Origin: a virus
IMG/VR virus record: IMGVR_UViG_3300036760_000042
Location: 1 to 59,943 of that record
Strand: one strand, 5' to 3'
Length of the DNA stretch: 59,943 nucleotides
The notes under the pieces: model-generated
Told to the model about the DNA's origin: nothing
Database searches by the model: none
What the model saw: only the letters and a program-made list of their open reading frames with translations
Translations under genes and position numbers: made by a program
In this document: one piece after another, positions 20,362 through 59,943 of the stretch
Position numbering within the stretch: the stretch's first letter is position 1
Layout: each line of letters opens with the position of its first letter

Positions 20362-20685
20362 ATGGATGTTCTAGGAGCACTGAAGGTCGGCGGTGGCGTA
20401 GCGTCAGAGGTCAAGAGCATCGTCTGGGCTAGCACGACGATTGACATCTCCGCTAGCATTGCCCCAACAGCACAGAGTTCGTACAGCGCAGTCGCCGTTG
20501 GGTTCAGGACGAATCACAACGTGATGGCTGAGTGGGGGTCAGCCACCACCTCCGCGAAGGGCGCTGTCTTCCACGGGGCCGCGTGTCTTACCGCCGACAC
20601 TGTCACCCTGACCTGCTACAACCCCGCCTCCTTCATTTGCAGTGGCTCCGCGGCGGAACCCGTCCTCGTCGTTGGGTGGCGGTAG
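20362..20685 (+). CDS. Small beta-rich virion protein, 107 aa
   Basis: ATG 20362 with AAGGAG upstream. Ser/Thr/Ala/Val-rich beta protein (IVWASTTIDISASIAPTAQS; DTVTLTCYNPASF), similar in style and size to the 18861 product. Head decoration is a reasonable guess. Confidence 0.65.
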   Translation: MDVLGALKVGGGVASEVKSIVWASTTIDISASIAPTAQSSYSAVAVGFRTNHNVMAEWGSATTSAKGAVFHGAACLTADTVTLTCYNPASFICSGSAAEPVLVVGWR

Positions 20686-20686
20686 T

Positions 20687-22762
20687 ATGCAGAGAACGCT
20701 TTCGGTCATCATCCCCACCCGAGGCAAGCTGGATCTGGTGCAGCGCGGACTTCGTGCACTCATCGCGCACGTTCCTGACGGCGTTGTGCTGGATACGGTG
20801 CTAGTTGAGCACGGAGGAACCCTCTGCCAGAACCTTGGCACCTCGGATGGGTTTGCAAGGGCGAACATCAAATGGATAGCTGCGCCCGAGACAGCCTCGT
20901 ACTCTGAGATGAATAATCTGGGCGTGGCGGCGGCAGAGGCCGGGACCCCACTGCTGTTCATGAACAACGATGTCGTCCCGCAGGCTGGATGTGTTGCCGC
21001 GATGCTCGCAGTGCTTGACGCGCACGCGGACGTTGGGGTCGCGGGGGCAAAGCTCCTGCACAATGACGGCACTATCCAGCATCTCGGCGTGGCGTTCGGG
21101 ATAGACGGGGTCCCTCATCACGTGGGCTGGGGGCGCGACCCCGAGACGTTCGCGCCAGCGACACGGAACGATTACTACGACTGCGTTACCTTCGCGCTCG
21201 CCTTGGTTCGCCGCGAGGTATGGGACGACGTCGGTGGCCTGTGTCCGGAGTACTTCTTCAACTACGAAGACATCGACTTCTGCCTCTCGGCGCGAGAGAA
21301 GGGGTGGCGGTGCTATGTCGATATGGCCGCGACTGCACTGCACGATGAGGGTGCCTCCGCGTCTGACAGAAACACCAAGGACCACGGCCAGCGCCGCAAC
21401 TGGGATGTCTTGGTGAAGCGCTGGGTGACCGGTGGTCGGATCAAGAAGGCTCTCGGGCTACCGTTATCGGGCAGGATGTTCTCGCATCAGGCGTCCGCGT
21501 CCTACAACGTGGCTTTCCTCCCATGGGTGCGTGGCGGTGGAGTAACCGAGTGGCGGCTTGAGGCCCCTGCCAGAAAAATCGCAAAGAAGAAGCTCATGAA
21601 TACAGTGCTGGTCTACGGAGACATGCCATCGGCTCAGGTCATCGAGACGCTGGCATCTGCGCATGTCGCCGTGATGCACGGGTTCACGGATGACTGGATT
21701 TCGGCTATCGCTAAGGACAAGTCGGGTCGCCCGTTCGCGATGGTGTACGACTACGATGACCACCCGCTCCACATCAGCCCGTATGCTCAGGCGTACGCCT
21801 CGTTCGGAACCAAAGAGATTTACATGGTGGACACGGTTACCGGGGATAGGGAGTGGCTGTGGCGCGACGGGCAGAACCGGCTCGACCTGCAAAGAAACCG
21901 GGTGCGGTTGGAAAAGCAGATGTCGATCTTGGCAAACGTGGACTGCGTTACAACGTCAACGGCCCCACTCGCCGGATTTTTCAAGACCCTGAACGCCAAC
22001 GTGAAGGTCCTGCCGAACGCCATAGACTTCGACCTCTATAGGGACTGGAACGTCCTGTGGGAGAGGAAGACGTCTGGCCGTATTCGCATTGGGTGGCATG
22101 GAGGGGACAACCATTGGCATGACATAAGCCAGATTGGCCCCGCACTGACGGCCTACGTCAACGCCCACGATGTCGAGTTGGTTCTGTTCGGAGCGTTCTA
22201 CCGGGGGCCTTTCAAGGGCATCGACGAGAGCAAGGTTGTCGAGGAGGACTGGGTTCACATTCAGGCGTTCCCGCACAAGCTCGCCGCCCTTGGGATCGAC
22301 ATCGCGGTGGTCCCTCTGGCCAATCCGGATGATCAGTTCATGGAGTTCAACCGGCACAAGAGCGGGATCAAGTACTTGGAGTACGCAGCGCTGCGGATTC
22401 CATCTCTGGTTGCAGGTGGCCGCGATGCGTACGATATGTGCGTGAATGGCTCCAATGCGCTCACCTACGACTCCGACGAAGAGTTCGAGGCCCAGCTAGA
22501 CCGGCTGGTCAGAGATTCAAAGCTCAGGAAGTCCATCGGGTCGGCGGCATTTGACTACGTCAAGGAGTTCCACGACCTCGACAAGAACATCTACGAGTGG
22601 TGCGACCTCTACTCGTCGCTTGCGGAGACATCTGCGGCCAGCCGCATCGAGCAGGAGGCGTTGCTGTCGGAGCCGAAGGACCTCGACCTGCGGGGCGCTT
22701 CCAGTAACGCCGCCGGAGAAGGCGCAATCGTGATCCCGTTCCCGTCGCAGGCAGCCGTCTGA
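20687..22762 (+). CDS. Two-domain glycosyltransferase, 691 aa
   Basis: Residues 1-250 are a GT-A family 2 enzyme: LSVIIPTRGKLDLVQRGLRA, then NNLGVAAAEAG, LLFMNNDVVP (nucleotide-sugar/metal motif NxDV) and a later YFFNYEDIDFCLSAREKGW (acceptor-site ED). Residues about 280-650 are GT-B-like: YDYDDHPLHISP, VDCVTTSTAPLAGFFK, then IRIGWHGGDNHWHDIS. Such fused enzymes decorate polysaccharides or glycoproteins. Set between head and tail genes, it may glycosylate virion proteins. Confidence 0.85.
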   Translation: MQRTLSVIIPTRGKLDLVQRGLRALIAHVPDGVVLDTVLVEHGGTLCQNLGTSDGFARANIKWIAAPETASYSEMNNLGVAAAEAGTPLLFMNNDVVPQAGCVAAMLAVLDAHADVGVAGAKLLHNDGTIQHLGVAFGIDGVPHHVGWGRDPETFAPATRNDYYDCVTFALALVRREVWDDVGGLCPEYFFNYEDIDFCLSAREKGWRCYVDMAATALHDEGASASDRNTKDHGQRRNWDVLVKRWVTGGRIKKALGLPLSGRMFSHQASASYNVAFLPWVRGGGVTEWRLEAPARKIAKKKLMNTVLVYGDMPSAQVIETLASAHVAVMHGFTDDWISAIAKDKSGRPFAMVYDYDDHPLHISPYAQAYASFGTKEIYMVDTVTGDREWLWRDGQNRLDLQRNRVRLEKQMSILANVDCVTTSTAPLAGFFKTLNANVKVLPNAIDFDLYRDWNVLWERKTSGRIRIGWHGGDNHWHDISQIGPALTAYVNAHDVELVLFGAFYRGPFKGIDESKVVEEDWVHIQAFPHKLAALGIDIAVVPLANPDDQFMEFNRHKSGIKYLEYAALRIPSLVAGGRDAYDMCVNGSNALTYDSDEEFEAQLDRLVRDSKLRKSIGSAAFDYVKEFHDLDKNIYEWCDLYSSLAETSAASRIEQEALLSEPKDLDLRGASSNAAGEGAIVIPFPSQAAV

Positions 22763-43120: not shown

Positions 43121-43695
43121 TGGCCGACTTCGACGTGGCGCTCCCGAAGATCCTGCGACACGAGGGAGTCGTGTTCGACCCAGACGGCGACCCAATCGTA
43201 GGGCGCACCGGCTACGTGAACAACCCAGACGATCCCGGCGGCGAAACGAACTACGGGATCACCCGCAACGTCGCGCTCGAAAATGGGTACGTGGCTGACA
43301 TGGTGGACATCCCGTTTTTCGTCGTGAAGAAGGTTTACCGGACGCGCTACTGGGATGCGCTGCACGGTGACGACATCGCTGATCAGGAGATCGCGGAGGA
43401 GTTGTTCGATACTGCCGTAAACATGGGAGTCGGTACGGTCGCCATGTTTCTCCAGCGGACGCTCAACGTCCTGAACCTGCGCGGCGTCAGGTACGCAGAT
43501 ATTCAGGTGGATGGCAAGATTGGACCCGGGACGATCAGCGCACTGAGCGCGGCATTGTCTGTCGAGCCGTGGTATCGGCTGGCGATCCTTCGGGCGCTCG
43601 ACTCGCTCCAAGCCGTGAGGTACATCACGATTGCTGAGAACAATCCCCGGCTCGAATCGTTCCTGCCGGGATGGTTGAGGAATCGAATCACATGA
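43120..43695 (+). CDS. Endolysin, GH108-type muramidase with peptidoglycan-binding end
   Basis: 191 residues. ILRHEGVVF gives the catalytic Glu (E15), followed by NNPDDPGGETNYGITRNVA, the DPGGxTxxGIT signature of glycoside hydrolase family 108. The second half (FDTAVNMGVGTVAMFLQRTL ... VDGKIGPGTISALSAA) is the paired peptidoglycan-binding domain. There is no signal peptide, so release depends on a holin. It opens the lysis cassette. Confidence 0.88.
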   Translation: MADFDVALPKILRHEGVVFDPDGDPIVGRTGYVNNPDDPGGETNYGITRNVALENGYVADMVDIPFFVVKKVYRTRYWDALHGDDIADQEIAEELFDTAVNMGVGTVAMFLQRTLNVLNLRGVRYADIQVDGKIGPGTISALSAALSVEPWYRLAILRALDSLQAVRYITIAENNPRLESFLPGWLRNRIT

Positions 43696-43703
43696 GGAGT
43701 CAA

Positions 43704-45029
43704 ATGAAACTCGCTCCCGTCCTGCTCATACTCGCCGTCACCCCCGCGCTTGCCGATGTCTGCCCCGTGGCGGAATCGGTCCCGCACCAGATGATCGTCA
43801 AGATGCGCGACGGGCCGGTCTCCACGCATGACCGCGTTGTGCTGCACCGCTTCGCGTCGGGCGCGGAACTCTGGCGCACCGATGCCGACCTCGTGTCTCT
43901 GCAACTGGACCCCGCGATTGAATACGCGGAGCCGGACTATGTTGTGTACGCGGACGTGGTGCCGAACGACCCGCGCTGGGGGACTGGCGGGAGTTACGGC
44001 CTGACCATCATCGACGCCCCTCATGCATGGGATGTAACGACCGGAGACCCGTCCGTGGTGGTCGGCATCGTGGACACCGGCTCCGGGCCACACGCGGACC
44101 TCAGCCTCGTCCCCGGCTACGACTACCTGAACAACGACGCCGACGCATCGGACGACCACCGGCACGGCACGTTCACCGCCTCGCAGGTCGGGGGCGTTGG
44201 CAACAACGGGATCGGGTTCGTGGGCGTCGCGTGGCATGTCAGTCTCAAGCCGTACAAGTTCTTGAGCGGGTGCGGGAGCGGCACCACGTCAAACGCCATC
44301 CTCGCCATTGACGACGCGACGGCATCCGGCGTACCCATCCTCAACAACTCGTGGGGAGGCAGCGGGTTCTCGCAGGCGCTACTCGACTCCATCAACGCCT
44401 ACTGTGCGGCGGGTGGGTTGTTTGTCGCGTCTGCGGGCAACAACGCCTCGGACACCGACCTCACGCCGCAGTACCCGGCAGACTACGACTCCCCGTGTAT
44501 CATCAGCGTGGCCGCAACCGACAGCCTCGACGGGCTCGCATCGTTCTCGAACTTCGGCGCGTTGACCGTGGACCTCGGGGCACCCGGCGTCAGCATCCTC
44601 GGCGGCATCCCGTACCCGTACACCTGCTCCGGCACCACGTCATCGGACTACGGTTTCCTCTCGGGCACGTCGATGGCCGCGCCCTTTGTCTCTGGTGTCG
44701 CCGCGCTTGTGAAATCCCTCTGCCCAACATGCACGGGCGCGGACATCAAAGCGCGCATCCTCGCAGCGGTCGATCCCGTCGCCTCACTCGCGGGCCGGAC
44801 TGTTACCGGAGGGCGGCTCAACGCGGCCCGAGCCGTCGGATATGGTGGACCACCGCCTCCGCCTCCGGCGGCATTTTGCAACGATGGAACATGCGACCCA
44901 GCGGAGAGTTGTAAGGATTGCCCTTCGGACTGCGGCTTATTCATCCACAAACCACGTTCGGCGGCTTCCTGTTGCGGCGACAACAAGCTCCAGCCGGGCG
45001 ACCTGACGCGGTGCTTCGGAAACTATTAA
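43704..45029 (+). CDS. Exported subtilisin-like serine protease (S8)
   Basis: 441 residues from ATG 43704 (GAGGAG five bases upstream). A Sec signal, MKLAPVLLILAVTPALA, is followed by a short pro-region, then the S8 triad: D124 (VGIVDTGSG), H154 (DHRHGTFTAS) and S323 (GTSMAAPFVSG), with oxyanion N246 (ASAGNN). The C-terminus after a Pro-rich linker is a Cys-rich repeat (CNDGTCDPAESCKDCPSDCG) of the kind on secreted bacterial proteins. An exported protease in a phage lysis cassette is unusual. Probably acquired from a host. Confidence 0.85.
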   Translation: MKLAPVLLILAVTPALADVCPVAESVPHQMIVKMRDGPVSTHDRVVLHRFASGAELWRTDADLVSLQLDPAIEYAEPDYVVYADVVPNDPRWGTGGSYGLTIIDAPHAWDVTTGDPSVVVGIVDTGSGPHADLSLVPGYDYLNNDADASDDHRHGTFTASQVGGVGNNGIGFVGVAWHVSLKPYKFLSGCGSGTTSNAILAIDDATASGVPILNNSWGGSGFSQALLDSINAYCAAGGLFVASAGNNASDTDLTPQYPADYDSPCIISVAATDSLDGLASFSNFGALTVDLGAPGVSILGGIPYPYTCSGTTSSDYGFLSGTSMAAPFVSGVAALVKSLCPTCTGADIKARILAAVDPVASLAGRTVTGGRLNAARAVGYGGPPPPPPAAFCNDGTCDPAESCKDCPSDCGLFIHKPRSAASCCGDNKLQPGDLTRCFGNY

Positions 45030-46510: not shown

Positions 46511-46586
46511 TGCGGGGACACGCCGTGGTGGCGAACTCGGTTCATACCCGAGAAAAACTGCGAGGTTCAAATCCTCGCCCCCGCAA
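46511..46586 (+). tRNA. tRNA-like element, anticodon CAU (Met/Ile2)
   Basis: Acceptor TGCGGGG pairs with CCCCGCA, discriminator A, then CC. Anticodon arm CTCGG-TTCATAC-CCGAG gives CAU. T arm CGAGG-TTCAAAT-CCTCG, with one extra G-C pair that makes six. The D arm is weak (three pairs, CGC/GCG) and U8 is missing. It resembles initiator tRNA at its 3' end (CCCCGCAACC). A real phage tRNA or a degenerate remnant. Confidence 0.55.
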
Positions 46587-46606
46587 CCCTTTCGAGTGAG
46601 GCCCTG

Positions 46607-47770: not shown

Positions 47771-48058
47771 TCAGCCCTTCCCAAGAGAGTAGAGGGGGAT
47801 CATGCCGGTGTGCGGGTGCGATATCATCCCGTCACCGGAGCAGTCGAAATCCCGTATTCCATGCGACCCGCATTTAGCGCAGACGTGTTCAACCGGCTCC
47901 GCATTCTCCCGGAGTATCGCGACGGCGGCGCGGAGTCGTGGCTTCAGTGTGCAGTCTAAACATTCGCATGGACTGGGCGGAATCACTCCGTCAAGGCCGA
48001 TATGATCTAACAGGTTCGCTGTTGCCTCCAGCAGCGCGGCCAGTGATTCGGGGGTCAT
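47771..48058 (-). CDS. Hypothetical protein, 95 aa
   Basis: ATG 48058 has GGAGGCG upstream. The frame stays open to a GTG at 48145 and reads plausibly even beyond it, so this may be the live end of an older, longer gene (see 48170..48297). Helical start (PESLAALLEATANLLDHIG), then CECLDC and CAKC ... DFDC pairs of a likely zinc fold. No family recognised. Confidence 0.65.
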   Translation of the reverse strand: MTPESLAALLEATANLLDHIGLDGVIPPSPCECLDCTLKPRLRAAVAILRENAEPVEHVCAKCGSHGIRDFDCSGDGMISHPHTGMIPLYSLGKG

Positions 48059-48169
48059 CGGATGCGCCTCCAGAAATCTGCCGTCCTCTGAGTCGAGCAG
48101 ACGGTACAAATCTGCATAGCAGCATTCCACTGGAACGTTACCCACCGATGCCGCCAGAACCAGCAGCGC

Positions 48170-48297
48170 CTACCGCTTGGCATTCCTCACCTCCCTCTCG
48201 TTAACCCGCGCCCGCCGTTCCCACTCCCACCATGCCGACGCCTCCTCTTGGTTTGCAGGCAGGATCGAGGAACCTGCCGTAAGTTATCGCCGGTCAT
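48170..48297 (-). pseudogene. Remnant of a gene broken by a frameshift and an amber stop
   Basis: From ATG 48297 the frame begins MTGDNLRQVP. A one-base shift in the next codons would join it to SSILPANQEEASAWWEWE and a charged helix (RRARVNEREVRNAKR) ending in TAG at 48170. Directly after that TAG, in the same frame, a plausible sequence (ALLVLAASVGNVPVECC) runs into the 47771..48058 gene. It looks like one decayed gene. The alternative 42-codon frame 48055..48183 with its own SD is possible but Trp/Arg-rich. Confidence 0.4.
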
Positions 48298-48569
48298 CTC
48301 GGCAGCATGCCCACCCGCGCGGGGTTACTGTTGCGCCCTCACGTTGTTGGGACAGATGGTTAAATTACATCGGCCCAAATCGTCGTGATAGTGGCTCAGA
48401 CGCCTCACCTCCCTCTTCGGTTGTTGCGGGACGGCATCCCCGTTTCAGGCTCTACCGATAACCCGATGGTCATCAGCGCCATTCCCGGTTTGTCCGCCTC
48501 TGCGCTGGTCACGGCGGGAGGAGCAGCACCAAGCCTTGCTTCGTCGGTAGACCGCCGCCCCGCAATCCT
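48298..48569 (-). other. Degenerate stretch with gene fragments
   Basis: No firm gene. A 27-codon frame (GTG 48408 to TAA 48325, RRLSHYHDDLGRCNLTICPN) follows GGGAG. The part 48488..48552 closely matches 51430..51494 within the 507-residue Cys-rich gene; in frame it would read TDEARLGAAPPAVTSAEAD. It is therefore a copied, decayed module. Confidence 0.4.
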
Positions 48570-48791
48570 TCACTTCTTCACCTTCCGCTTCTCCTTGCGT
48601 GTGTTCAATCGAATCTGCCGGAGCGACGCCGGGATCCCTGTGAAGTTCGGGCATCTCAGCAATCCGTTGAGCGCCTGAAGCTCATCTCGAATGTCCAACA
48701 GGATCGCCGTGTTGACTCGCTCCCATGTAGGCGCGTTGCCTTGGTCATTTCCTGGTGCCCAGTCGAAATTCTTCAATCGTTTGTCAACCAC
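48570..48791 (-). CDS. Small conserved-type phage protein, 73 aa
   Basis: GTG 48791 overlaps the upstream stop. VNTAILLDIRDELQALNGLL, then CPNFTGIPASLRQIR and a basic tail form a pattern met in many phage early regions, though without assigned function. Confidence 0.7.
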   Translation of the reverse strand: MVDKRLKNFDWAPGNDQGNAPTWERVNTAILLDIRDELQALNGLLRCPNFTGIPASLRQIRLNTRKEKRKVKK

Positions 48792-48978
48792 GCTTCACCA
48801 CCTTCCGCTTCACGCGCAGGTCATAGGCGTCGAACAGTTTGATGGACGCCTTCGGGACCGGCTGATAGGATGACCGAGTACAAAACAGAACATGGTGCAC
48901 GTACCCGTAATCGTCCGACTTGCCGCCGCACTCCCGACACCTCCACAGAGTCTTCGGCACCTTCGGCTTCTCGCTCAT
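48784..48978 (-). CDS. Zinc-finger small protein, 64 aa
   Basis: ATG 48978 overlaps the stop of the membrane protein before it (ATGA) and has GAGGG upstream. WRCRECGGKSDDYGYVHHVL and the following FC give a CxxC...H...C zinc motif. The basic tail (RVKRKVVKRG) resembles the end of the neighbouring 48570 product (EKRKVKK). Confidence 0.7.
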   Translation of the reverse strand: MSEKPKVPKTLWRCRECGGKSDDYGYVHHVLFCTRSSYQPVPKASIKLFDAYDLRVKRKVVKRG

Positions 48979-49073
48979 CTCCCATCCCTCGTTACGGTCC
49001 AGAGTGCAAACGCGCAGAATGCGAGGAGCGCGATGAATGCTATCGCTGACGGCCAACCCATAGGCCCGCTCAC
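48975..49073 (-). CDS. Single-span membrane protein, 32 aa
   Basis: GTG 49073 with GGAAGGAG upstream overlaps the preceding stop (GTGA) and the frame ends in ATGA overlap with the next. Almost the whole protein is one span (AIAFIALLAFCAFALW) with a short charged end (TVTRDGR). The upstream open extension is not needed. Confidence 0.6.
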   Translation of the reverse strand: MSGPMGWPSAIAFIALLAFCAFALWTVTRDGR

Positions 49074-49258
49074 GGCTGTCTCCTTCCTGTCCCACCACAT
49101 CGCTCGCAAGGTCGCCCCATCCATACACGGCCAGCTAGGTGCATTGCTGATGGGCCGATACCATCGCCCAAGCAATCACCGCATGGATTCTTCTTCACGC
49201 GCTTGAGACTGCCGATGTAGATGAAGCCCTTCAGCGCGGCGGGCTTGTCATTTCCCAT
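49070..49258 (-). CDS. DnaJ-type Cys-motif protein, 62 aa
   Basis: ATG 49258 with GGAGGGG upstream. N-terminus MGNDKPAALKGF belongs to a set of similar starts in this region. CGDCLGDGIG and CERCGGTGR are two CxxCxGxG zinc half-sites as in DnaJ. Overlaps neighbours on both sides. Confidence 0.7.
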   Translation of the reverse strand: MGNDKPAALKGFIYIGSLKRVKKNPCGDCLGDGIGPSAMHLAGRVWMGRPCERCGGTGRRQP

Positions 49259-49895
49259 TGTCCCCTCCATCCAGATACCACCTCAGGCGCTCGGCCTGCC
49301 ATGCACGTTCAGCAGCCCGCGCAGCATCCCCCGCAGCAGCCCGCGCAGCCCACGCAGCATCCCCCGCAGCAGCCCACGCAGCAACCCACGCAGCCCACGC
49401 AGCATCCCCCACAGCATCCCCCGCAGCCCACGCAGCATCCCCCACAGCCCGCGCCAATCTCAACTCATCCGCGCTGGCCAGTCCATTGGCGTATCTGCGG
49501 GCCACAGCTATCGTCTGTGCCGCCGTGCCCGATTTATCCAGGTGCGTTACGCGCTCCGCGCAGTCGCATGCAAACAAGCGGGCCGTCCGTTCATTCCATG
49601 TGCTTACGCGCTTGATGAGCCGCGCCTCGTGGTAGATGCCGACGTGCCGCGACTTCTCCACCCGCTCTCCGCGCACCTCGACTTCGTACAATTCCGGGGC
49701 GATCCATTCGTGCAATTCGGCGTCAGACTCGATCACGTGGTAGCCGGAACGACACGGCGTCAGCCTCTCAACTCTCGGCATCCACTTGCCGGGACGTTTG
49801 CCGCTCGGCAGATGCCACGAGCCGGTGCCGTGGACGCATTTGCCGTTGGCGTCGAGGAACTTGTAGAACGCGGCGGGCTTGTCAGTCTTTGGCAT
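49248..49895 (-). CDS. DUF7666-like protein with Ala-rich tandem repeats, 215 aa
   Basis: ATG 49895 with AAGGAG upstream; start MPKTDKPAAFYKF. The first 100 residues (YKFLDANGKCVHGTGSW, then LTPCRSGYHVIESDAELHEW and ELYEVEVRGERVEKSRHVG) follow a phage family of unknown function. Residues about 145-205 are Ala/Trp/Gly/Asp repeats (GDAAWAAGDAVGDAAWAA and similar), probably a long helix. Repeat number is likely variable. Confidence 0.75.
   Translation of the reverse strand: MPKTDKPAAFYKFLDANGKCVHGTGSWHLPSGKRPGKWMPRVERLTPCRSGYHVIESDAELHEWIAPELYEVEVRGERVEKSRHVGIYHEARLIKRVSTWNERTARLFACDCAERVTHLDKSGTAAQTIAVARRYANGLASADELRLARAVGDAAWAAGDAVGDAAWAAWVAAWAAAGDAAWAARAAAGDAARAAERAWQAERLRWYLDGGDNGK
49320..49462 (-). 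repeat. Tandem Ala-coding repeat
   Basis: Variants of a 15- to 24-base unit (plus strand: GCAGCCCACGCAGCATCCCC and similar) recur about eight times, encoding AAWAA/GDAAWAA turns of the 49248..49895 protein. The phase is kept, so copy-number change by slippage would not break the frame. Confidence 0.8.
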
Positions 49896-50049
49896 GAGCA
49901 GACTCCTTCAGCGGTAATCCCGCAGCCCCTCGCTCTAGTTGCTCTCCGATCCTATCCATGCACTTCCGGCAGATGACCAGCGACGGCGGGCATGGCGGGA
50001 CTCCGCAACCATTGGCGCACAGCGCGAGCGGCAGGCTAGTCTTTGGCAT
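49882..50049 (-). CDS. Cys-rich small protein, 55 aa
   Basis: ATG 50049 overlaps the preceding stop (TGATG); AGGGG upstream. Begins MPKTSLPLALCANGCGVPPC, then CRKCMDRIGEQLERG: a CxxxC...C...CxxC zinc module. Its first codons repeat the MPKT start of the next gene. Confidence 0.65.
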   Translation of the reverse strand: MPKTSLPLALCANGCGVPPCPPSLVICRKCMDRIGEQLERGAAGLPLKESAHAKD

Positions 50050-50342
50050 CAGTCCCCTGGGTCCCTTCCGCCGTTGCAGGCGAAGCAAATGCCGTCAGCG
50101 AATTGATTCGGCTTTCCGCACTTGCCGCAATGTCCGCGCTTGTCAGGCCACGGCTCGGTGAACCAGTGCGCATCTTTTGGCTGTGGGCAATACGGACACT
50201 GTGCGGCAACCGCCTGCGCAGCCGACGCGATTAACTCTCGAATCAGATAGCCACAGTTGGAACACAGTGGCAGTTTGTATGTTTGATCCACGATGTGATG
50301 CAGCAACCTTTCCGCGCCTACGGCGGGCTTGTCAGTTGGCAT
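50049..50342 (-). CDS. Zinc-ribbon protein, 97 aa
   Basis: ATG 50342 with GAGGAGGAG upstream; start MPTDKPAVGAERLL. Three CxxC pairs (LCSNCG, QCPYCP, HCGKCG) and a final CFACN form double zinc ribbons. Probably nucleic-acid or protein binding. Shares its 5' tag with 49895 and 49258 starts. Confidence 0.7.
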   Translation of the reverse strand: MPTDKPAVGAERLLHHIVDQTYKLPLCSNCGYLIRELIASAAQAVAAQCPYCPQPKDAHWFTEPWPDKRGHCGKCGKPNQFADGICFACNGGRDPGD

Positions 50343-50475
50343 CGGGCGGCTCCTCCTCAAGGTCGGTCCAGCAATCGCCAGAAATCAGGTCCATGTGATA
50401 CCCACGGTGATCGACTGCTCTAGTGCATGTATGGCCCGCGTGGACCGACGCGCATGACTCCTCAAACGCTGCCAT
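50332..50475 (-). CDS. Small acidic protein, 47 aa
   Basis: ATG 50475 with GGGAGG upstream lies inside the end of the preceding gene, and the frame ends inside the start of the next. MAAFEESCASVHAGHTCTRA, then DHRGYHMDLIS and an acidic tail. Cys/His spacing hints at metal binding. The overlap pattern fits the operon. Confidence 0.55.
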   Translation of the reverse strand: MAAFEESCASVHAGHTCTRAVDHRGYHMDLISGDCWTDLEEEPPDAN

Positions 50476-50719
50476 CCCCACCTCCCCTCTTCACTTCGTC
50501 GTAATGCTGCCTGAGCCTTAACACCCGGCATCCGAGATGCGGGCAGTCCGTGTGCCAGTGCTGCGTAAATGCCTTCGTCCTGCCGACGATGCCAACGTCC
50601 TTGTCTGTTTGCTCCTTGAACTCCCGCAAGTCGGCAGCCTCTTGAGCAAGATCGACAATTTGCTTAACCGCGCATTCGTGATGGAGCGCCCAACACGCTG
50701 GGCCGTGGGTAACAGTCAT
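50462..50719 (-). CDS. Hypothetical Cys/His-containing protein, 85 aa
   Basis: ATG 50719 overlaps the stop of the large Cys-rich gene (ATGA). ACWALHHECAVKQIVDLAQE, an acidic helix, then HWHTDCPHLGCRVLRLRQH. A possible metal-binding helical protein. No family recognised. Confidence 0.65.
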   Translation of the reverse strand: MTVTHGPACWALHHECAVKQIVDLAQEAADLREFKEQTDKDVGIVGRTKAFTQHWHTDCPHLGCRVLRLRQHYDEVKRGGGDGSV

Positions 50720-52239
50720 GCGCCGCCTCCCTTCGGCCCGAATTCCTCGCGGTAGGCGGCGGCAGCTTTTCGGAGCGCACTGCCCCCATAGGACAGTTCA
50801 CAGTTAGCCGCCCTCTCCTCCAGCCACCCCGCGACATCGACCCCATGCCCCTCGGCATCGCACCTGACAAGCTGGGCCGTCACCCGGTCGATCTCGCACA
50901 GGACGCAGAGGTCGGCGGCGGACCATTTGTGCGGGCGGTCGCAGGGAGGATCGACGGGCGGGGCGGGGTAGAGGGGCCGCGCCCTACCCTCGCATTGCCC
51001 CCAGTCCTGCTTACCGTGGCTGTAGTGCCATTCCGGTGGACCACCTGGGCCGCGATGTTCCGCCGCCTGAGACGACAGATACCAGATACAGTCCTCGCAA
51101 TCCCACGCCACCGGCTCGACGGGCGGGGCGGGGTAGAGGGGCTCCATCGGCTTGCAGCACACGATACAGTTGGGCTGAGATTTATAGGGCAGCACGTAAC
51201 TCGTATGCTCCTTGCACCGCCACGCCACCGGCTCGCCCGAAGTAGGGCGAAGTACGCCCCCCTGCTTGCTGGCCTTTGGAATCGGCGCGTGCCTCTTCCC
51301 ATACCCCGGACAATCGCTCAGGTCGCACAGCGGGTAGTCTCCGATTATGATCGGTGCTCTCCCCTGCTTGCTGGCGAACAATCTGACAGGCCCGTCGACG
51401 CCCGTTTCCGGCCCTAACGCCTTCCCCGGTTCGTCCGCCTCTGCGCTGGTCATGGCGGGAGGATCAACGCCAAGCCTTGCTTCGTCGGCAGACACGGGCC
51501 TGTCAGAACTTTGCTTGCTGGCGGACGGGCGTGGGAATACCCCCCCGCAGTCCTCACACGTCACGTCATCCGTCGCCGCTGGTTGCATATGGCGGCGGGT
51601 GCGTTTGTGCTGGCAGTGGGTGGACGGGATGGCGATGCCGGGGCAGGGCATGCCCTCCCAATCGGTATCATCGCAACACTTACAATGCCCCGCCTCCACC
51701 ACCGGCTCGCTTCCTTGCTTGCTGGCGGACGGGATGCCGGAGAGTTTCTCCGCGTATGCCTCGGTCATCACCGGGTTCCTGCACGCTTTCGAGAGGTTCG
51801 CACACGTCAGCCACCCGCCGTCACCGATGAACAGCATCGCTTCGCCGCACGATGGGCACGGGTCTTTGATGCGCTCGCCGTCTCGTGGTGCCTCGCCTCG
51901 CCAACCGTGCGGGCAATGCTGCCCCGCCTCCACCACCGGAGAGGACGCGGCGCGTTCACGTCGAAGCGCGGCCAGAACCTTGTCAATGGGGCCACCACCA
52001 CGCCTATCCCTTGAACGACCGTGCGGGAGCGTAGTGATCGCATAATCAATCACCTTCTTTAGCCGCTCGTTTTCGCCAGCGAATGCAGCGAGGTCGGACA
52101 TCAGCGTGCTGTCTGCAATAGGCACCGGAGAGGACGCGACTGCGCTAATCTCTCTCGACAGGAGCGTATGGAGATTCCTCAGACGATGCGCCCAATCCTC
52201 CAGCAACCCCACCTCGACCAGCACGCTAGGGTTAGTCAT
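50716..52239 (-). CDS. Modular Cys-rich mosaic protein, 507 aa
   Basis: ATG 52239. Start MTNPSVLVEVGLLEDW. Short zinc-type modules (CPSCGEAMLF; CKCCDD; CEDCGGVF; CIVCC; CEDCIW; CVLCE) are divided by an ASKQ linker at 172, 240, 289 and 323. SSPVVEAG (99) recurs as SEPVVEAG (177), and PLYPAPPV occurs at 368 and 422. The end is a helical domain (GWLEERAANCELSYGGSAL). It looks built from copied pieces, some shared with neighbouring genes. Function unknown, perhaps multivalent binding. Confidence 0.7.
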   Translation of the reverse strand: MTNPSVLVEVGLLEDWAHRLRNLHTLLSREISAVASSPVPIADSTLMSDLAAFAGENERLKKVIDYAITTLPHGRSRDRRGGGPIDKVLAALRRERAASSPVVEAGQHCPHGWRGEAPRDGERIKDPCPSCGEAMLFIGDGGWLTCANLSKACRNPVMTEAYAEKLSGIPSASKQGSEPVVEAGHCKCCDDTDWEGMPCPGIAIPSTHCQHKRTRRHMQPAATDDVTCEDCGGVFPRPSASKQSSDRPVSADEARLGVDPPAMTSAEADEPGKALGPETGVDGPVRLFASKQGRAPIIIGDYPLCDLSDCPGYGKRHAPIPKASKQGGVLRPTSGEPVAWRCKEHTSYVLPYKSQPNCIVCCKPMEPLYPAPPVEPVAWDCEDCIWYLSSQAAEHRGPGGPPEWHYSHGKQDWGQCEGRARPLYPAPPVDPPCDRPHKWSAADLCVLCEIDRVTAQLVRCDAEGHGVDVAGWLEERAANCELSYGGSALRKAAAAYREEFGPKGGGA

Positions 52240-52241
52240 GG
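52204..52241 (-). repeat. 38-bp shared gene start, copy 1
   Basis: Identical to 52744..52781. Encodes MTNPSVLVEVGL at the start of the 507-residue protein. The identical bases stop soon after the start codon. Confidence 0.9.
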
Positions 52242-52387
52242 TCTGCCCCGAGCAGCTTCAGCGCCTCAGCGAGTTGCATCTTGACGATTTCGACGAACGG
52301 CAACCCCACCTTCTTGATATTGTCGCAGTTGATTTCAGCACAGCGGATCGTTTCGATTGTTTCTTCAATCTTGCTGTATTCGATCAT
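52232..52387 (-). CDS. Small helical protein, 51 aa
   Basis: ATG 52387 with GGGGGAGGA upstream overlaps the preceding stop (ATGA). IEYSKIEETIETIRCAEINC, then IVKMQLAEALKLLG: two amphipathic helices. No family recognised. Confidence 0.65.
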   Translation of the reverse strand: MIEYSKIEETIETIRCAEINCDNIKKVGLPFVEIVKMQLAEALKLLGADHD

Positions 52388-52779
52388 TCCTCCCCCTCTC
52401 CTTTCTCCCCCGCTGGAAGGACGGCGCGGGCCTTCCTTGCCGCGCACCTATGTCCGTCCGCTACACCCATACCGTACGGGCCTGTGCCAACTTCAGGATG
52501 GTCGTATTGCTGATGCGGGTCATCACGGATTGTGACAAGCGCCCCCTCGATTGCCTCCAGCTTCGCCCGCAGGGTGTCGCGCTCGGCCATCAGTTTCCGC
52601 ACGCTGGCGCTTTCCTCCACCACCGGAGAGGACGCGGCGGCGCGGAGCCGTCTCGCTATCAAGTCCGCAATCGCATCGGGCGAACCCGACATTAATTCGT
52701 CTCGCATACTCTTCTCATACAAGCGAGACACCGCCTCCTCCACCAACCCCACCTCGACCAGCACGCTAGGGTTAGTCAT
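52384..52779 (-). CDS. Hypothetical protein sharing ends with its neighbours, 131 aa
   Basis: ATG 52779 with GGAGG upstream. Start MTNPSVLVEVGLVEEAVSRL copies the 507-residue protein, AASSPVVEE echoes its linker, ERDTLRAKLEAIEGA matches 52938..53417, and the end PAGEKGEGEE also matches that gene's end. It appears to be a recombinant of the two. Confidence 0.65.
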   Translation of the reverse strand: MTNPSVLVEVGLVEEAVSRLYEKSMRDELMSGSPDAIADLIARRLRAAASSPVVEESASVRKLMAERDTLRAKLEAIEGALVTIRDDPHQQYDHPEVGTGPYGMGVADGHRCAARKARAVLPAGEKGEGEE

Positions 52780-52781
52780 GG
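52744..52781 (-). repeat. 38-bp shared gene start, copy 2
   Basis: Identical to 52204..52241, covering the start of the 131-residue gene. Confidence 0.9.
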
Positions 52782-52951
52782 CGGGCCTCCTGCGCTGGCA
52801 GTGTCGGCGTAAACCAGTCATGCTCTGCACCGCCGGTACAGGCCATAGGTCCGGGGCTGCATTTCGCTCCCGCATCCTCCAGCATTGCTAGTAGCATCGC
52901 TCGCTTAAGCGTAATGCCGCAAGCGGAACACTTATCATCAAGCATCGACAT
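52772..52951 (-). CDS. Zinc-finger-like small protein, 59 aa
   Basis: ATG 52951 with GGAGAGGGGGA upstream; overlaps neighbours both sides. DDKCSACGITLKRAMLLAML, then AKCSPGPMACTGGAEHDWF: CxxC plus later Cys/His. Probably zinc-binding. Confidence 0.6.
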   Translation of the reverse strand: MSMLDDKCSACGITLKRAMLLAMLEDAGAKCSPGPMACTGGAEHDWFTPTLPAQEARHD

Positions 52952-53417
52952 TCTCCCCCTCTCCTCTCTCCCCCGCTGCGAGCGCGGCGCGTAGGGCGTT
53001 AACATCCTCTCGGCGTGGTGGCGTCCGCAGCCCTTCGTTGTCTGCCGAGTCCTCGTCCTGGTGCGTGAGCATCACTAGCGCCGCACCCTCGACCGCCTCC
53101 AGCCTCTCCTTCAGTGCGATCCCCTGCCGCACGAGGATCACGTTCAGGTTCGTACACCGCTGCGCCCCCCGGTTCGCGGCCACCAGTTCCCGGTGAGCGG
53201 CCTCCAACTGAGCCCGCAGGGTGTCGCGCTCTGCCAGAGCATCGGGCAGCGATTCGATGGCCGTGACTATCTGCTCCAACTCGGCAGCCTTGCGCTTCAG
53301 CCGCGCAATCTCCGCCCCATGCCCGCACTCAACACCTGGGCAGCCGTCCATCGTAGCGTCCTCTCCGCAGTGTCTCGATAGGTTCAGGCACCCGCAATGC
53401 CGTGGCTCGGCGGTCAT
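52938..53417 (-). CDS. Coiled-coil protein with Cys-rich head, 159 aa
   Basis: ATG 53417 with AAGGAG upstream. Head HCGCLNLSRHCGEDATMDGC plus CPGVECGHG, then a long coiled coil (AEIARLKRKAAELEQIVTAI; ALAERDTLRAQLEAAHRELV) and an end, AALAAGERGEGE, like that of the 52384 gene. Likely oligomeric. Function unknown. Confidence 0.65.
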   Translation of the reverse strand: MTAEPRHCGCLNLSRHCGEDATMDGCPGVECGHGAEIARLKRKAAELEQIVTAIESLPDALAERDTLRAQLEAAHRELVAANRGAQRCTNLNVILVRQGIALKERLEAVEGAALVMLTHQDEDSADNEGLRTPPRREDVNALRAALAAGERGEGENVDA

Positions 53418-53491
53418 GGGCGGGGCTCCTTCCGCGACTTCAGCTTCATCGGCTTCCTCCGATACAACGGCCTCGCCATGTGTCCGCTCAT
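53414..53491 (-). CDS. Putative small basic peptide, 25 aa
   Basis: ATG 53491 overlaps the preceding stop (ATGA), and its TGA overlaps the next ATG. Strongly basic (RPLYRRKPMKLKSRKE). Coupling supports it; size makes it uncertain. Confidence 0.4.
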   Translation of the reverse strand: MSGHMARPLYRRKPMKLKSRKEPRP

Positions 53492-53661
53492 AGCCCCCCC
53501 AGCCAGACTGAGAGCAGTATGCCGACGATGCCGCCAGCCGTGATGATGGCGGTCCATCCCTTGACGGCATCCCAGTCGATGCGTCGGCGGTGCAGAAAGG
53601 GGTCGCGGTGACCTGATGCTACGCGCCACATGCCGTGGGCGCTGACGGTCCTGATTCGCAT
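53488..53661 (-). CDS. Single-span membrane protein, 57 aa
   Basis: ATG 53661 with GGAGACGAC upstream. Basic N-terminus (MRIRTVSAHGMWRVASGHRD), then one span (AIITAGGIVGILLSVWLGG) at the C-terminus. Stop overlaps the next ATG. Confidence 0.6.
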   Translation of the reverse strand: MRIRTVSAHGMWRVASGHRDPFLHRRRIDWDAVKGWTAIITAGGIVGILLSVWLGGL

Positions 53662-53768: not shown

Positions 53769-54017
53769 TTACTCCTCAGTCCACTTGGCAACCCAAGTGT
53801 CCACGTCATCTCGGCGCGGCCCCTTCTCAACCAGCCCTTCCTTGCGTAGGATGCCAAGGCAGCGCGCAACGCGCAGCCGGAAGGAGTCCTCAGGAAGGGG
53901 GTCGGCCAGATAGAACTGCGCCTTGGTGGCAATCTCAGGAACGGTAAGCTGTCCGCACGTACGCACGACTCCGAGTACCAGCGCGTGGTGATGGCCCAGA
54001 TGCGAGTGGCTTTTCAT
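53769..54017 (-). CDS. Winged-helix-like small protein, 82 aa
   Basis: ATG 54017 overlaps the resolvase stop. VVRTCGQLTVPEIATKAQFY, then FRLRVARCLGILRKEGLVEK fits a helix-turn-helix with wing, so it could be an early regulator. No direct proof. Confidence 0.6.
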   Translation of the reverse strand: MKSHSHLGHHHALVLGVVRTCGQLTVPEIATKAQFYLADPLPEDSFRLRVARCLGILRKEGLVEKGPRRDDVDTWVAKWTEE

Positions 54018-54466
54018 TCGACTTCCGTCACGCGCACGACAAGGCCGACCTTGTGTTTGTCGTAAACGTGGGTGACGGTGCCGAGCGTGACGTGCTTGGG
54101 CGAGTCGTCCGGGGTCATGGCGTTATTGAAGAGGCCGTCCCCCACGGCCTTGAATGCCGCCCACATGTTGTCCTCGTCGAGCGCCTTCTTGCGCATCGAA
54201 ATGAGGTCCACGCGCACGCGCCCCTTCGCGGTGGGCTTGCCCTGCGACACCCAGACAGTGTGTGCAGCGGTCTTGACGGTCTGGCGCAGGCGGTGCTTGG
54301 CCATGTAGTGCATGGGCTTGTTGGGATTGAGTAGACCGAGGTTGACCGGAAGGAGGAAGGCCCACGTGCGGAGGGCGGAAGTCCGAGGGCCAGCAGGACC
54401 GGAGCCACTGCCGGCCCTCGACTCGGAGAACGACATGATGGAATTCCACCCATGCGTTGGTTTCAT
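54014..54466 (-). CDS. rusA: RusA-like Holliday junction resolvase
   Basis: 150 residues; ATG 54466 with GGAGG upstream. The conserved core is LDEDNMWAAFKAVGDGLF (D97, D99, K106, D110), followed by TPDDSPKHV (D120, D121), the acidic cluster that binds metal in RusA. The N-terminal LLNPNKPMHYMAKHR strand also fits. Resolves branched DNA before packaging. Forms a recombination cluster with the next genes. Confidence 0.8.
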   Translation of the reverse strand: MKPTHGWNSIMSFSESRAGSGSGPAGPRTSALRTWAFLLPVNLGLLNPNKPMHYMAKHRLRQTVKTAAHTVWVSQGKPTAKGRVRVDLISMRKKALDEDNMWAAFKAVGDGLFNNAMTPDDSPKHVTLGTVTHVYDKHKVGLVVRVTEVE

Positions 54467-55467
54467 GCTACCACCTCCTCTTTCCGCCGCGCAAGCGGCT
54501 TGATGTCGATCTTCCAGCCCTTCAGTACCCGCGCCTCAGCCGCGCCCAGCTTGCGTACGACTTCCTTGCCGGTGATGATGTAGTCTCCGACCACGGCCCT
54601 CTCGATGTCCCTGAAGCGCTCCTTGTTGCGGTCGTGCACGCGCTCGTACTCTAGGTGAGCGCCATGTAGTTCGATGTCTCTGGCAACGTCGGCGATGACT
54701 GCCGGGTCGAGGCTGACGTCAGCGCCCTGCTCGAACAGGCCCATCGGGAAACATCCACGAGCGAAGAACGGACAGTCCCGGCATTCGTCCGGGTCGCCGA
54801 AGAACGGCGGCATCTCCCCGGTCTTGCGTGCCCCCAGCGCCTGTTCTGCCAGTGACAGGTACTTCTCCATCGAGTCGTACCGCTCCTCCAGCACGATGTC
54901 GATGGCCCTGAGTTCACCGGGCAGGTCGAGTAGCAGCAGGCCGCGTGGCAGGTCCTTGCCGTACAGGTACGTGAGGATCTGCATCTCGGCACCACGGGTG
55001 AAGCGCGACTGGTTCAGGTCCTCAACACACGTGATGCGCTGGCCCATCATCGGCCAACTCTTGATCTCGATGGGAACGTCGGGGGTCCCGGCGTACTCGC
55101 CCTTGAACCGGAGCATGACGTCCACGATGCCGGTGACGGCGGGGGCGATGGAGTTGCGCCCGTGGACCGACACGCGCTCGGCCACGCGCACGACTTCCCA
55201 CGGCGACGACGCACGCTTGCCGATCTGGATCAGGTTGGCGATGATGTCGGCCTCTCGCTGACGGCCCCTCTCCAGCCGGTACTGGACCTCCACCGGCATC
55301 GGTGCCATCGCTTCGGGCTGAGTGAGCTTGAGGGTCAGGTTGCGGGCGCACGGGTGGTAGTCCGTGGCCCACAGGTGGTCGCCAGGCTGACGCGGTGGTC
55401 TCTGGGATGCGAGCATCTCGGAGTGCTCGCGCAGTCCTGCCTGAAGCAGTGACGCTGGGCTAAACAT
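54463..55467 (-). CDS. Cas4/RecB-like exonuclease with Fe-S cysteines
   Basis: 334 residues; GAGGGAG upstream. PD-(D/E)xK core: GIVDVMLRF (D116), PIEIKSWPM (E134, K136), then EMQILTYLYG (Q and Y of motif IV). One early Cys (C40, DYHPCARNL) and three late (C229, C232, C239: ECRDCPFFARGC) form the 1+3 arrangement of a 4Fe-4S cluster, as in Cas4 and AddB. Probably the phage recombination exonuclease. No Cas genes are present. Confidence 0.8.
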   Translation of the reverse strand: MFSPASLLQAGLREHSEMLASQRPPRQPGDHLWATDYHPCARNLTLKLTQPEAMAPMPVEVQYRLERGRQREADIIANLIQIGKRASSPWEVVRVAERVSVHGRNSIAPAVTGIVDVMLRFKGEYAGTPDVPIEIKSWPMMGQRITCVEDLNQSRFTRGAEMQILTYLYGKDLPRGLLLLDLPGELRAIDIVLEERYDSMEKYLSLAEQALGARKTGEMPPFFGDPDECRDCPFFARGCFPMGLFEQGADVSLDPAVIADVARDIELHGAHLEYERVHDRNKERFRDIERAVVGDYIITGKEVVRKLGAAEARVLKGWKIDIKPLARRKEEVVA

Positions 55468-55911: not shown

Positions 55912-56124
55912 CTACAGGTCGTGGCACTTGCACAGGCACTTCGTGTTCCGCACCGTTGCAGGGCAGTCTCCGTGCTGACTGTCGATGCAGGCCATGTAGA
56001 CCCGGTCACCGGCAGGGTCGCAGGGCACCACGGAGAGCCAGTTGGGCGGTGGCCCCAGTTCCTTCTCGATCCACCGGTTGCGCAACTCGGACGTGATGGC
56101 GTAATCCGGAGCAGGCTGCGTCAT
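55912..56124 (-). CDS. Cys-containing small protein, 70 aa
   Basis: ATG 56124 overlaps the stop of the gene before it. SELRNRWIEKELGPPPNWLS, then a Cys-rich end (ACIDSQHGDCP ... KCLCKCHDL) likely binding zinc. No family recognised. Confidence 0.65.
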   Translation of the reverse strand: MTQPAPDYAITSELRNRWIEKELGPPPNWLSVVPCDPAGDRVYMACIDSQHGDCPATVRNTKCLCKCHDL

Positions 56125-57065
56125 CGTCCCTCATCCGCAGCAAGCTGCGCCTCGAACTTCGCGACGACTTTCTTGATGGCCCACTCGGGTGACCCGAGGA
56201 AGTGCGCCCACGTCTTGGACTCGTAGACCTGCCCGCCCTTCTCGTTGCGAGTCAGCTTCGCGAGTTCCGCGAGCGCCTCCTTCTCGTCGCCGCCGCAGTA
56301 CCCGATGAGCCGGGTCTTGAAGGTGTCGACGGTGACCTTGGTGTCGTCTGACGCGGCAGCCCCCGTCCGGCGCTCGTTGCCGGAACCAAACCCGGACCCC
56401 TTCGTGCATCGGCTGGTGTCCAGCCCATGCTCCTTCAGCAGCGCTTCGCTGACCTTGGTGATGCCGCTCAGGGCCATCGCTGCCTTCTTGCGTGCCGCCG
56501 TGTAGGTGGACGACAGCAGGTCGGCCCGGCGCACGGCCTCCGGGGTGGATTCGAGATTGCGACCGCTGAAGTCTTCGTGGTCGTTGCGCTCCCCGCGCAC
56601 GCCCTCGATGCGCTGGCCCGTCATGACGCTGTAGGCGTCCAGAACGAGCACCGCCGAGTGCGAGCCGTCAGTGTTGGTGGTGACCACGGGGATGTCGATC
56701 TTGTTGCCCTCCGCGTCGCGCATGTTCTCGAAGTTCACCCCGTACAACTGGATGAACCATTCGGCAGCGCCGCGACCGGGCGATGCCATGACGCGACCCT
56801 CCTTGTCCTTCTTCATGTCCCAGTCTTCCGGCTGGGTGCCAGCGATGGCGGCTTTGCGCAGCGCCTTGAGCAGGTCGGTGCGGGCCTCGATGACCGCCAT
56901 CGCGTTCTTCGCCTTGGCGGCGATGCTGGCAACGCTGACCACCTGCGGGATGAGGCTGTCGGCATCCGCAACGTCGCGGTCGTCAGCCAGCATCGGCAGC
57001 AGCGCTTGGTCTACGGTGCTGGTCTGTATGCTCATTGCGGCTCGCTTCCGGACTTCTGTTTCCAT
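56121..57065 (-). CDS. Putative ssDNA-annealing or -binding protein, 314 aa
   Basis: ATG 57065 with GAGGAGGACGAC. Middle part (AIEARTDLLKALRKAAIAGT-like helix; PEDWDMKKDKEGRVMASPGR; AAEWFIQLYGVNFENMRDAE; TPEAVRRADLLSSTYTAARK) has the look of phage recombination mediators, and the gene is three upstream of the Cas4-like nuclease. I do not see a clear RecT or ERF signature, so the role is inferred. Confidence 0.5.
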   Translation of the reverse strand: METEVRKRAAMSIQTSTVDQALLPMLADDRDVADADSLIPQVVSVASIAAKAKNAMAVIEARTDLLKALRKAAIAGTQPEDWDMKKDKEGRVMASPGRGAAEWFIQLYGVNFENMRDAEGNKIDIPVVTTNTDGSHSAVLVLDAYSVMTGQRIEGVRGERNDHEDFSGRNLESTPEAVRRADLLSSTYTAARKKAAMALSGITKVSEALLKEHGLDTSRCTKGSGFGSGNERRTGAAASDDTKVTVDTFKTRLIGYCGGDEKEALAELAKLTRNEKGGQVYESKTWAHFLGSPEWAIKKVVAKFEAQLAADEGR

Positions 57066-57091
57066 GTCGTCCTCCTCGAATGTGTAGCGGT

Positions 57092-57283
57092 TCATTTATA
57101 CAAGCTCGTGCTGACGGTCTTGCCTTTCCTCCGTGCGATGTAGTAGTTGGAGACTGCACGCACGCACTTCGCGCAGTGAACTGTCCGGGTGTTGGACGGG
57201 CGCAGCGTTTTGCTGGCGCACCGTGGGCACAGCCCGGCCTTCTTCCTGTTGCTGTACGTCTGGTCCTTCGCCTTCGTTGCCAT
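57092..57283 (-). CDS. Zinc-ribbon basic protein, 63 aa
   Basis: ATG 57283 with GAGGAGG upstream. KAGLCPRCASKTLRPSNTRT, then VHCAKCVRAVSNYYIARRKG: CxxC...CxxC ribbon with basic ends. Probably a DNA-binding small protein. Confidence 0.7.
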   Translation of the reverse strand: MATKAKDQTYSNRKKAGLCPRCASKTLRPSNTRTVHCAKCVRAVSNYYIARRKGKTVSTSLYK

Positions 57284-59662: not shown

Positions 59663-59856
59663 GACTTCCCCTCTGGCCGGGTCACGAGACCTGCCTCAAT
59701 CATGCGCATCGCCGTGCGCCCGTAGTGCCCCTGCAGTTGCCACGCAAGGCCAGAGTCCACGAGCGACTGGAACATCGCGACGGTGTCCTCGTGCGACTGC
59801 GTGCCTCCCTCGTAGTTCATGATCGCGTCGATTGCGTCTGTCGTAGCTGGTGCCAT
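59659..59856 (-). CDS. Hypothetical protein, 65 aa (complete short form of the joint-spanning gene)
   Basis: ATG 59856 with AGGAGGA upstream. APATTDAIDAIMNYEGGTQS, then MFQSLVDSGLAWQLQGHYGR: a small helical domain. The frame stays open upstream to the window edge (59943) and, on the circle, to the ATG at 276, which would add a 64-residue Cys-rich head. The first part duplicates 1..84. Confidence 0.7.
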   Translation of the reverse strand: MAPATTDAIDAIMNYEGGTQSHEDTVAMFQSLVDSGLAWQLQGHYGRTAMRMIEAGLVTRPEGKS

Positions 59857-59943
59857 TGTCTTCCTCCTGAGGTATGCGGTGGACATGCCACCGTGGATGG
59901 TTTCGTTGTGGAACATCGCGGCGTACTTCGCCAGCGCCAGTCC
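59773..59943. repeat. Terminal direct repeat, right copy
   Basis: Matches 1..171 with one difference (T at 59817 against C at 45). See the left copy. Confidence 0.95.

Follow-up and report, generated by a model that had tools for sequence, protein, structure and literature searches.

The sequence analysed here, referred to as the window, is the IMG/VR virus record IMGVR_UViG_3300036760_000042 (59,943 nucleotides (nt)), and the subject is its early gene block at 47.8-53.7 kb. The block is a series of minus-strand genes with overlaps of mostly 1-14 bases. It is significantly rich in cysteine, with 17 CxxC motifs in 1,834 residues vs 8 in 13,841 residues elsewhere in the genome (p=6e-11). A preliminary description, made from the sequence alone, had suggested that neighbouring genes of the block carry near-identical short tags at their starts, ends and linkers, and that the small cores between these tags bind zinc and can be swapped by homologous recombination. 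All of the tags that it named are present in the sequence.

Repeated tags of the early block

Whole-genome self-BLAST returned 10 significant interspersed repeats, the terminal repeat aside, and 6 of them are inside 48.4-53.3 kb (Table 1). This interval is about one tenth of the genome; by our own arithmetic the binomial p value is about 1e-4. The repeats join neighbouring minus-strand genes at starts, ends and linkers, and the sequence in between is unrelated. In four pairs of gene starts at least 14 of 15 nt are identical, and the mean best value in random in-frame sets is 12.2. The strongest start tag is common to a gene of 507 amino acids (aa) that begins at 52239 and a gene of 131 aa that begins at 52779. 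The identical 38 bp reported for this pair were confirmed and are part of a longer repeat. The third codon positions of the two tags are identical in 14 of 15 cases, which argues for copying at the DNA level. Downstream of the 38 exact bases the two genes are random with respect to each other until the next tag, ASSPV.

The AGE[KR]GEGE ends and the ERDTLRA and SSPVVE pieces recur significantly as well, and the claim that the cores between the tags differ is borne out. The 19 nt common to the RKVKK and KRKVVKRG ends and the start MPKTSLPLA are present and are weak when taken alone. The DKPAA-type starts at 49258, 49895 and 50342 have TGACAAGCCCGCCG in common, which in 3/3 cases opens with the stop codon that ends the upstream, overlapping gene. 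The first of these genes (49070-49258, 62 aa) resembles the DnaJ CxxCxGxG zinc domain with an E-value of 2e-4, which is under the Pfam cut-off. The second (49248-49895, PHROG 18326) has tandem GDAAWAA-type repeats at its end (49290-49480).

The 507-aa gene is a chain of small, mostly Cys-rich modules, and its protein has no Pfam or PHROG match. It contains four GCCAGCAAGCA (ASKQ) linkers with an identical 11-nt core and, towards the end, two EPVAW-core-PLYPAPPV modules followed by another Cys-rich stretch. The ASKQ linkers and the EPVAW...PLYPAPPV modules had escaped the preliminary description. The cores of the two modules are 78 and 126 nt long and differ in sequence, while the brackets on either side of them match at the DNA level. 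The DEARLG piece was correctly described as repeated; one of its copies, however, is not in a gene. It is located in a gap of 424 nt (48146-48569), the one large stretch of the array that has no genes, and therefore looks like a remnant, a decayed module of the 507-aa gene. The gap copy aligns to that module over 114 columns with an in-frame gap of 21 nt.

The 131-aa gene, judged from its sequence, is a chimera. Its start and ASSPVVE linker are those of the 507-aa gene, and its ERDTLRA coil, EGAL and AGEKGEGE end are those of the gene at 52938. The C-terminal GVADGHRCAA domain of this gene is also found in 4 IMG/VR contigs, where it stands behind other N-termini. A profile search with the domain returned nothing beyond these 4 loci, and a search of genome contigs with the domain-bearing protein gave no match.

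The bracket family in other phages

The bracket family was defined by EPVAW, a core of 26-42 aa and then PLYxAP in a single frame. The 507-aa gene has two tandem copies of this arrangement, which occurred in 0 of 20,000 shuffles of its protein. A degenerate form of the pattern matched at least 120 stretches in IMG/VR. The brackets are in frame in 79 of the 80 inspected stretches, and the cores fall into 47 groups with a median pair identity of 16%. Since the pattern fixes some codons, the true breadth of the family is larger and the sample is biased to GC-rich DNA. Species-representative genomes gave 8 bracket matches, spanning Burkholderiales, Enterobacteriaceae and others. A tblastn search with one module protein (from phage locus L087) had no match; matches were obtained with a mixture of segments from several modules. 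INPHARED records with bracket modules are annotated as EaA, Ea22, DUF551 or Lar-like, and the bracket is present in proteins of phi80 and HK140 and in Ea22 and EaA proteins. The Ea22 gene of PhiR47_1 adjoins exodeoxyribonuclease VIII and EaE; its protein also contains a CxxC...CDTCDGSG stretch. An IMG/VR phage (L036) and a Pusillimonas minor genome (L139) seem to hold the same prophage genes, in which a WDGH-domain protein (PF25311) is fused to tandem EPVAW modules.

The module gene has short DNA repeats of its own, either internal or with its neighbours, in 32 of 75 loci. Repeats cover 8.4% of the module genes, 2.9% of the DNA within 1.5 kb and 1.2% at greater distances. In each of two loci, L014 and L083, a pair of neighbouring genes that overlap is alike in start, linker, PLY tag and end and has different cores. 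On sequence grounds these arrays are the picture drawn by the preliminary description, in unrelated phages. L083 also has a third and a fourth tag-bearing gene (737-1524, with a MINLTREEAQQVLDAL start and an EWQGLTDEE tag), which precede its two-gene array by about 3 kb and stand right before the PD-(D/E)XK and ERF genes.

Most cores of these relatives lack Cys pairs and are not zinc-binding. Zinc is therefore not the principle of the family. A purely zinc-finger swap system was dropped as an explanation for this reason.

Core reassortment and breakpoints

The flanks of the cores were compared over 30 nt, without the bases on which the pattern search relied; the loci compared are mostly metagenomic. 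Both flanks are at least 80% identical in 23 locus pairs, a level never reached by shuffled flanks. The core is at the random level in 8 of these pairs and nearly identical or close in 13. L030 and L050 have 135 nt in common over 12-13 kb, and these are entirely within three tags. Genes with the same middle core have unrelated C-cores in 7 of 8 pairs, and genes with the same C-core have unrelated middle cores in 5 of 6 pairs. Cores reassort independently, as read from these comparisons. In the chain L065, L024, L067, L032/L026, L084, L082, one core is common to each step.

Several breakpoints are at the tags themselves. Three pairs become homologous from the first base of the PLY tag onwards, namely L024/L065 (130 nt, 97%), L067/L032 (141 nt, 91%) and L067/L026 (145 nt, 88%), and the other joins are mostly inside or beside tags. 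Isolates behave in the same way. The coliphages Dewey and Louie are 98% identical in the N part and 95% in the C part, and their cores are at 52% (random 49%, 95th percentile 54%). In phi80 and HK140 the N-core is at 52% and identity then rises to 96% starting about 20 nt ahead of EPVAW; the same reassortment pattern is found among the isolates phi80, HK140, HK639 and Bas106. Annotated Ea22 and EaA proteins from different phages also have one core in common. The expectation that conserved ends would be joined to reshuffled cores is therefore seen in other bracket-carrying phages, isolates included, rather than in relatives of the window's own early region.

Table 1. Coordinates of the tags, modules and genes discussed in the text (window positions)
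Feature	Position	Strand	Description
507-aa modular gene	50716..52239	-	N-terminal tag MTNPSVLVEVGL, ASSPV linkers, Cys-rich modules, C-terminal Cys module
131-aa chimeric gene	52384..52779	-	Start tag, ASSPVVE, ERDTLRA coil, EGAL, AGEKGEGE end
159-aa coiled gene	52938..53417	-	ATG at 53417; ERDTLRA, LEAVEGA and AGERGEGE in common with gene at 52384
Start tag, 507-aa gene	52196..52241	-	46 nt, 98% to 52736-52781, 38 nt exact, E=2e-12; contains stop of upstream gene
Start tag, 131-aa gene	52736..52781	-	Pairs with 52196..52241
ASSPVVE linker copy	51927..51952	-	26 nt, 100% to 52614-52639, E=5e-4
ASSPVVE linker copy	52614..52639	-	Pairs with 51927..51952
AERDTLRA coil copy	52553..52589	-	37 nt, 89% to 53200-53236, E=2e-5
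AERDTLRA coil copy	53200..53236	-	Pairs with 52553..52589
AGEKGEGE end tag	52390..52428	-	39 nt, 87% to 52953-52991, E=2e-5; also Shine-Dalgarno of next gene
AGERGEGE end tag	52953..52991	-	Pairs with 52390..52428
EPVAW-core-PLYPA module 1	51125..51234	-	Core RCKEHTSYVLPYKSQPNCIVCCKPME, zinc-ribbon-like CxxH/CxxC
EPVAW-core-PLYPA module 2	50960..51117	-	Different core, DCEDCIWYLSS...GQCEGRAR
PLYPAPPV bracket copy	50948..50977	-	30 nt, 97% to 51113-51142, E=6e-5
PLYPAPPV bracket copy	51113..51142	-	Continues into EPV of next module; pairs with 50948..50977
EPVAW bracket copy	51209..51235	-	27 nt, 85% to 51092-51118
EPVAW bracket copy	51092..51118	-	Pairs with 51209..51235
DEARLG module in 507-aa gene	51418..51493	-	76 nt, 89% to 48477-48552, E=4e-20
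DEARLG copy, likely remnant	48477..48552	-	In gene-free gap; pairs with 51418..51493
TGACAAGCCCGCCG start-stop junction tag	49237..49250	-	Gene 49070-49258 (MGNDKPAA)
TGACAAGCCCGCCG junction tag	49871..49884	-	Gene 49248-49895 (MPKTDKPAA)
TGACAAGCCCGCCG junction tag	50321..50334	-	Gene 50049-50342 (MPTDKPAV)
Weaker start tag	50023..50052	-	Gene 49882-50049 (MPKTSLPLA); 73% to 49869-49898
RusA-like Holliday junction resolvase	54014..54466	-	PHROG 1682, E=5e-5
Exonuclease candidate	54463..55467	-	Pairwise match to similar gene beside module array in phage locus L087, E=6e-8

Genome context

The window has a 171-bp terminal direct repeat (1-171 = 59773-59943, 99.4%, from the same self-BLAST), and therefore the genome is probably complete and closes circularly. 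TerL, a head-tail adaptor and the major head protein have PHROG matches. The sole whole-phage relative detectable in IMG/VR (G001, major head protein 65%) has the structural genes and an HNH family in common with the window, but not the rest of the early block; bracket modules were looked for in G001 and none are present. A tRNA-Met (CAT) gene on the plus strand (46511-46588) separates the late and early blocks. Other genes include an RmlD-like dTDP-sugar reductase and, directly after it, a sigma factor of the sigma-70 type (6819-8443), a glycosyltransferase-like protein of 706 aa (20642-22762) and a subtilisin-family (S8) peptidase (43671-45029) downstream of the gene for a 3,243-aa protein. 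The minus-strand gene 781-1542 holds a 39-nt repeat at 95% (1066-1104 / 1387-1425) that is unrelated to the early tags.

Discussion

The block is probably an array of overlapping early genes with interchangeable cores between short shared DNA tags, and we give this reading a probability of roughly 0.7. The cassette interpretation of the preliminary description is thus partly supported: the sequence comparisons support it for the bracket gene family, and it would extend by analogy to the window phage, where core swapping is presumed. The tags, which are found where start and stop codons overlap, in linkers and as the EPVAW and PLYxAP brackets, would offer nearly identical stretches of 15-50 bp in fixed places. 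Homologous or homeologous recombination, either during infection or between prophages, could then bring in a core from a different gene or phage and keep the reading frame, and the swapped core would be displayed on a constant scaffold. A model of a typical bracket protein, that of L050, shows a helical hairpin at the N-terminus, strands that flank the core at EPVAW and PLYTAP, and C-terminal helices on LTDEE and the end tags. Since these predicted strands flank the core, the tags would be scaffold and recombination handle at once. Fold searches with the bracket protein returned unnamed phage proteins only and no solved fold.

Enzymes suited to such an exchange may be encoded next to the array. 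The resolvase of the preliminary description is supported, as RusA, by its PHROG match. The exonuclease candidate has the pairwise match listed in Table 1 but no Pfam or PHROG match. Both genes share the strand of the array and are no more than about 2 kb upstream of it. The L083 array adjoins ERF and PD-(D/E)XK genes, and other module loci carry YqaJ, AAA_24 or VRR-NUC genes. Lambda Red efficiently recombines DNA diverged by 22% (PMC2327257), and mosaicism is driven by Rad52-like phage recombinases, whose fidelity is relaxed (PMC3945230). The exchange may be carried out by the phage's own recombination enzymes, which would fit the published lambda Red data.

Several points weigh against the array of interchangeable cores in the window. 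Near relatives of its early region or of its proteins were found neither in INPHARED nor in IMG/VR, and its other tags are found nowhere else, which leaves the EPVAW/PLY bracket as the sole link to the wider family. Core exchange at tags is therefore seen in other bracket members and not in this lineage. The repeats within this genome, taken alone, are also compatible with duplication and decay. The purine-rich AGE[KR]GEGE ends can also be read as a Shine-Dalgarno sequence for the overlapping gene that follows, and for this reason the likeness of the end tags may be partly translational. The L050 model is of moderate quality (predicted local distance difference test score (pLDDT) 75, predicted template modelling score (pTM) 0.40), and single-sequence modelling of the tandem modules in the window gave no usable structure. 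No support was found for the annealing protein that had been assigned to 56121-57095.

Three other explanations were considered. The tags may be kept by function, as scaffold strands, linkers, start/stop overlaps and Shine-Dalgarno sequences, while the cores evolve fast and the tags are not recombination sites. The strands predicted at EPVAW and PLY fit this explanation, as do TGACAAGCCCGCCG, which covers stop/start overlaps, and the ribosome-binding-like GEGE ends. However, function alone does not explain the agreement of the start tags at third codon positions, nor the 130-145 nt blocks at 88-97% that begin at a tag beside an unrelated core. Function may account for the persistence of the tags but not for reassortment, and this explanation is unlikely.

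Local tandem or segmental duplication followed by decay within the phage would make the tags leftovers after fast divergence of the cores, with no exchange between phages. Pieces are indeed shared among neighbours, the DEARLG copy persists as a gene-free remnant, and the Ala-rich tandem repeats at 49.3-49.5 kb are a case of repeat expansion here. Yet after the 38-bp exact tag there is no likeness except in the next tag, and decay cannot yield the same core with different partners, or breakpoints at tags, in other phages. This explanation therefore seems improbable.

It is very improbable that the reassortment in IMG/VR is an artefact of short-read assemblers joining contigs at shared tags: the tags, at 26-60 nt, come close to the word sizes that assemblers use, and the loci are mostly metagenomic, but this explanation is largely ruled out, and metagenome chimerism was dropped, because isolate genomes (Dewey/Louie, phi80/HK140/HK639/Bas106) reassort likewise, and Ea22/EaA proteins of different phages have a core in common.

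Relation to known systems

The lambdoid Ea22/EaA proteins of the exo-xis region are among the closest known systems. According to PMC10834534, these are encoded in an early operon next to recombination genes and are mosaic, with an N part, a linker and a variable C part. The window array is likewise beside an exonuclease candidate and RusA in an early operon, and the records PhiR47_1 (Ea22) and CRES7 (EaA) carry the EPVAW/PLY-type module. In contrast, the window proteins are without an Ead_Ea22 or other Pfam match (the 507-aa and 131-aa proteins had no Ead_Ea22 match in a Pfam scan), and they have mostly Cys-rich cores and other start and end tags. Tag-bounded reassortment at the DNA level is not reported for Ea22 in the passages covered.

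The boundary-sequence model (Susskind and Botstein 1978; Clark et al. 2001, HK620) holds that unrelated modules become joined where short conserved sequences allow homologous recombination, although such sequences are not findable at most mosaic boundaries (both as given in PMC3029335). The window also has short conserved sequences at module junctions, namely start/stop overlaps and linkers. The model, however, concerns boundaries between genes, whereas the window tags are inside genes, several per gene, and delimit sub-gene cores. The start-associated sequences (SAS) and extended SAS (ESAS) of Cluster K mycobacteriophages are short repeats at many non-structural gene starts of one phage (PMC3203893). 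SAS precede the start codon by 3-7 bp and cover the ribosome-binding site (PMC3203893), whereas the window start tags begin at the ATG or 2 bp ahead of it and extend into the gene, and the tags are mostly within coding sequence and also occur at linkers and ends. SAS-like regulatory repeats were dropped as an explanation because of this difference in position. Smug et al. 2023 described protein fragments common to otherwise unrelated phage proteins, some of them recent, in a screen for fragments of at least 50 aa (PMC10684548). The tags (8-20 aa) and cores (about 30 aa) are below that size and would therefore not be covered by the screen. No published description of the bracket family or of tag-bounded core swapping was found in the part of the literature covered. 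The system seems to have been noticed piecemeal only, and it looks like a natural mix-and-match system.

Conclusions

The products may be proteins for host takeover or counter-defence, with selection acting on their diversity. This is a guess suggested by the early position, the small diverse cores and one Lar-like record annotation. A broader and more tentative proposal, possible but short of an even chance, is that the brackets belong to a widespread combinatorial system, in which a pool of cores between serial tags, in a tag dialect particular to each group, would be assorted by phage recombinases into N-, middle and C-cores, in the course of infection or between prophages, and would give each lineage a quickly renewable supply of host-takeover or counter-defence proteins on constant scaffolds.

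Phage mosaics could arise through homologous exchange, at boundaries that are short and conserved, or through illegitimate joining, and which of the two applies is an old question. In the bracket family the boundaries are findable inside genes, and breakpoints were mapped to the base in phage pairs. Since phi80, HK140, Dewey and Louie are tractable in the laboratory, the origin of mosaics could be tested by simple crosses. The cores of small early proteins could also be catalogued and screened by collecting the sequence between tags.

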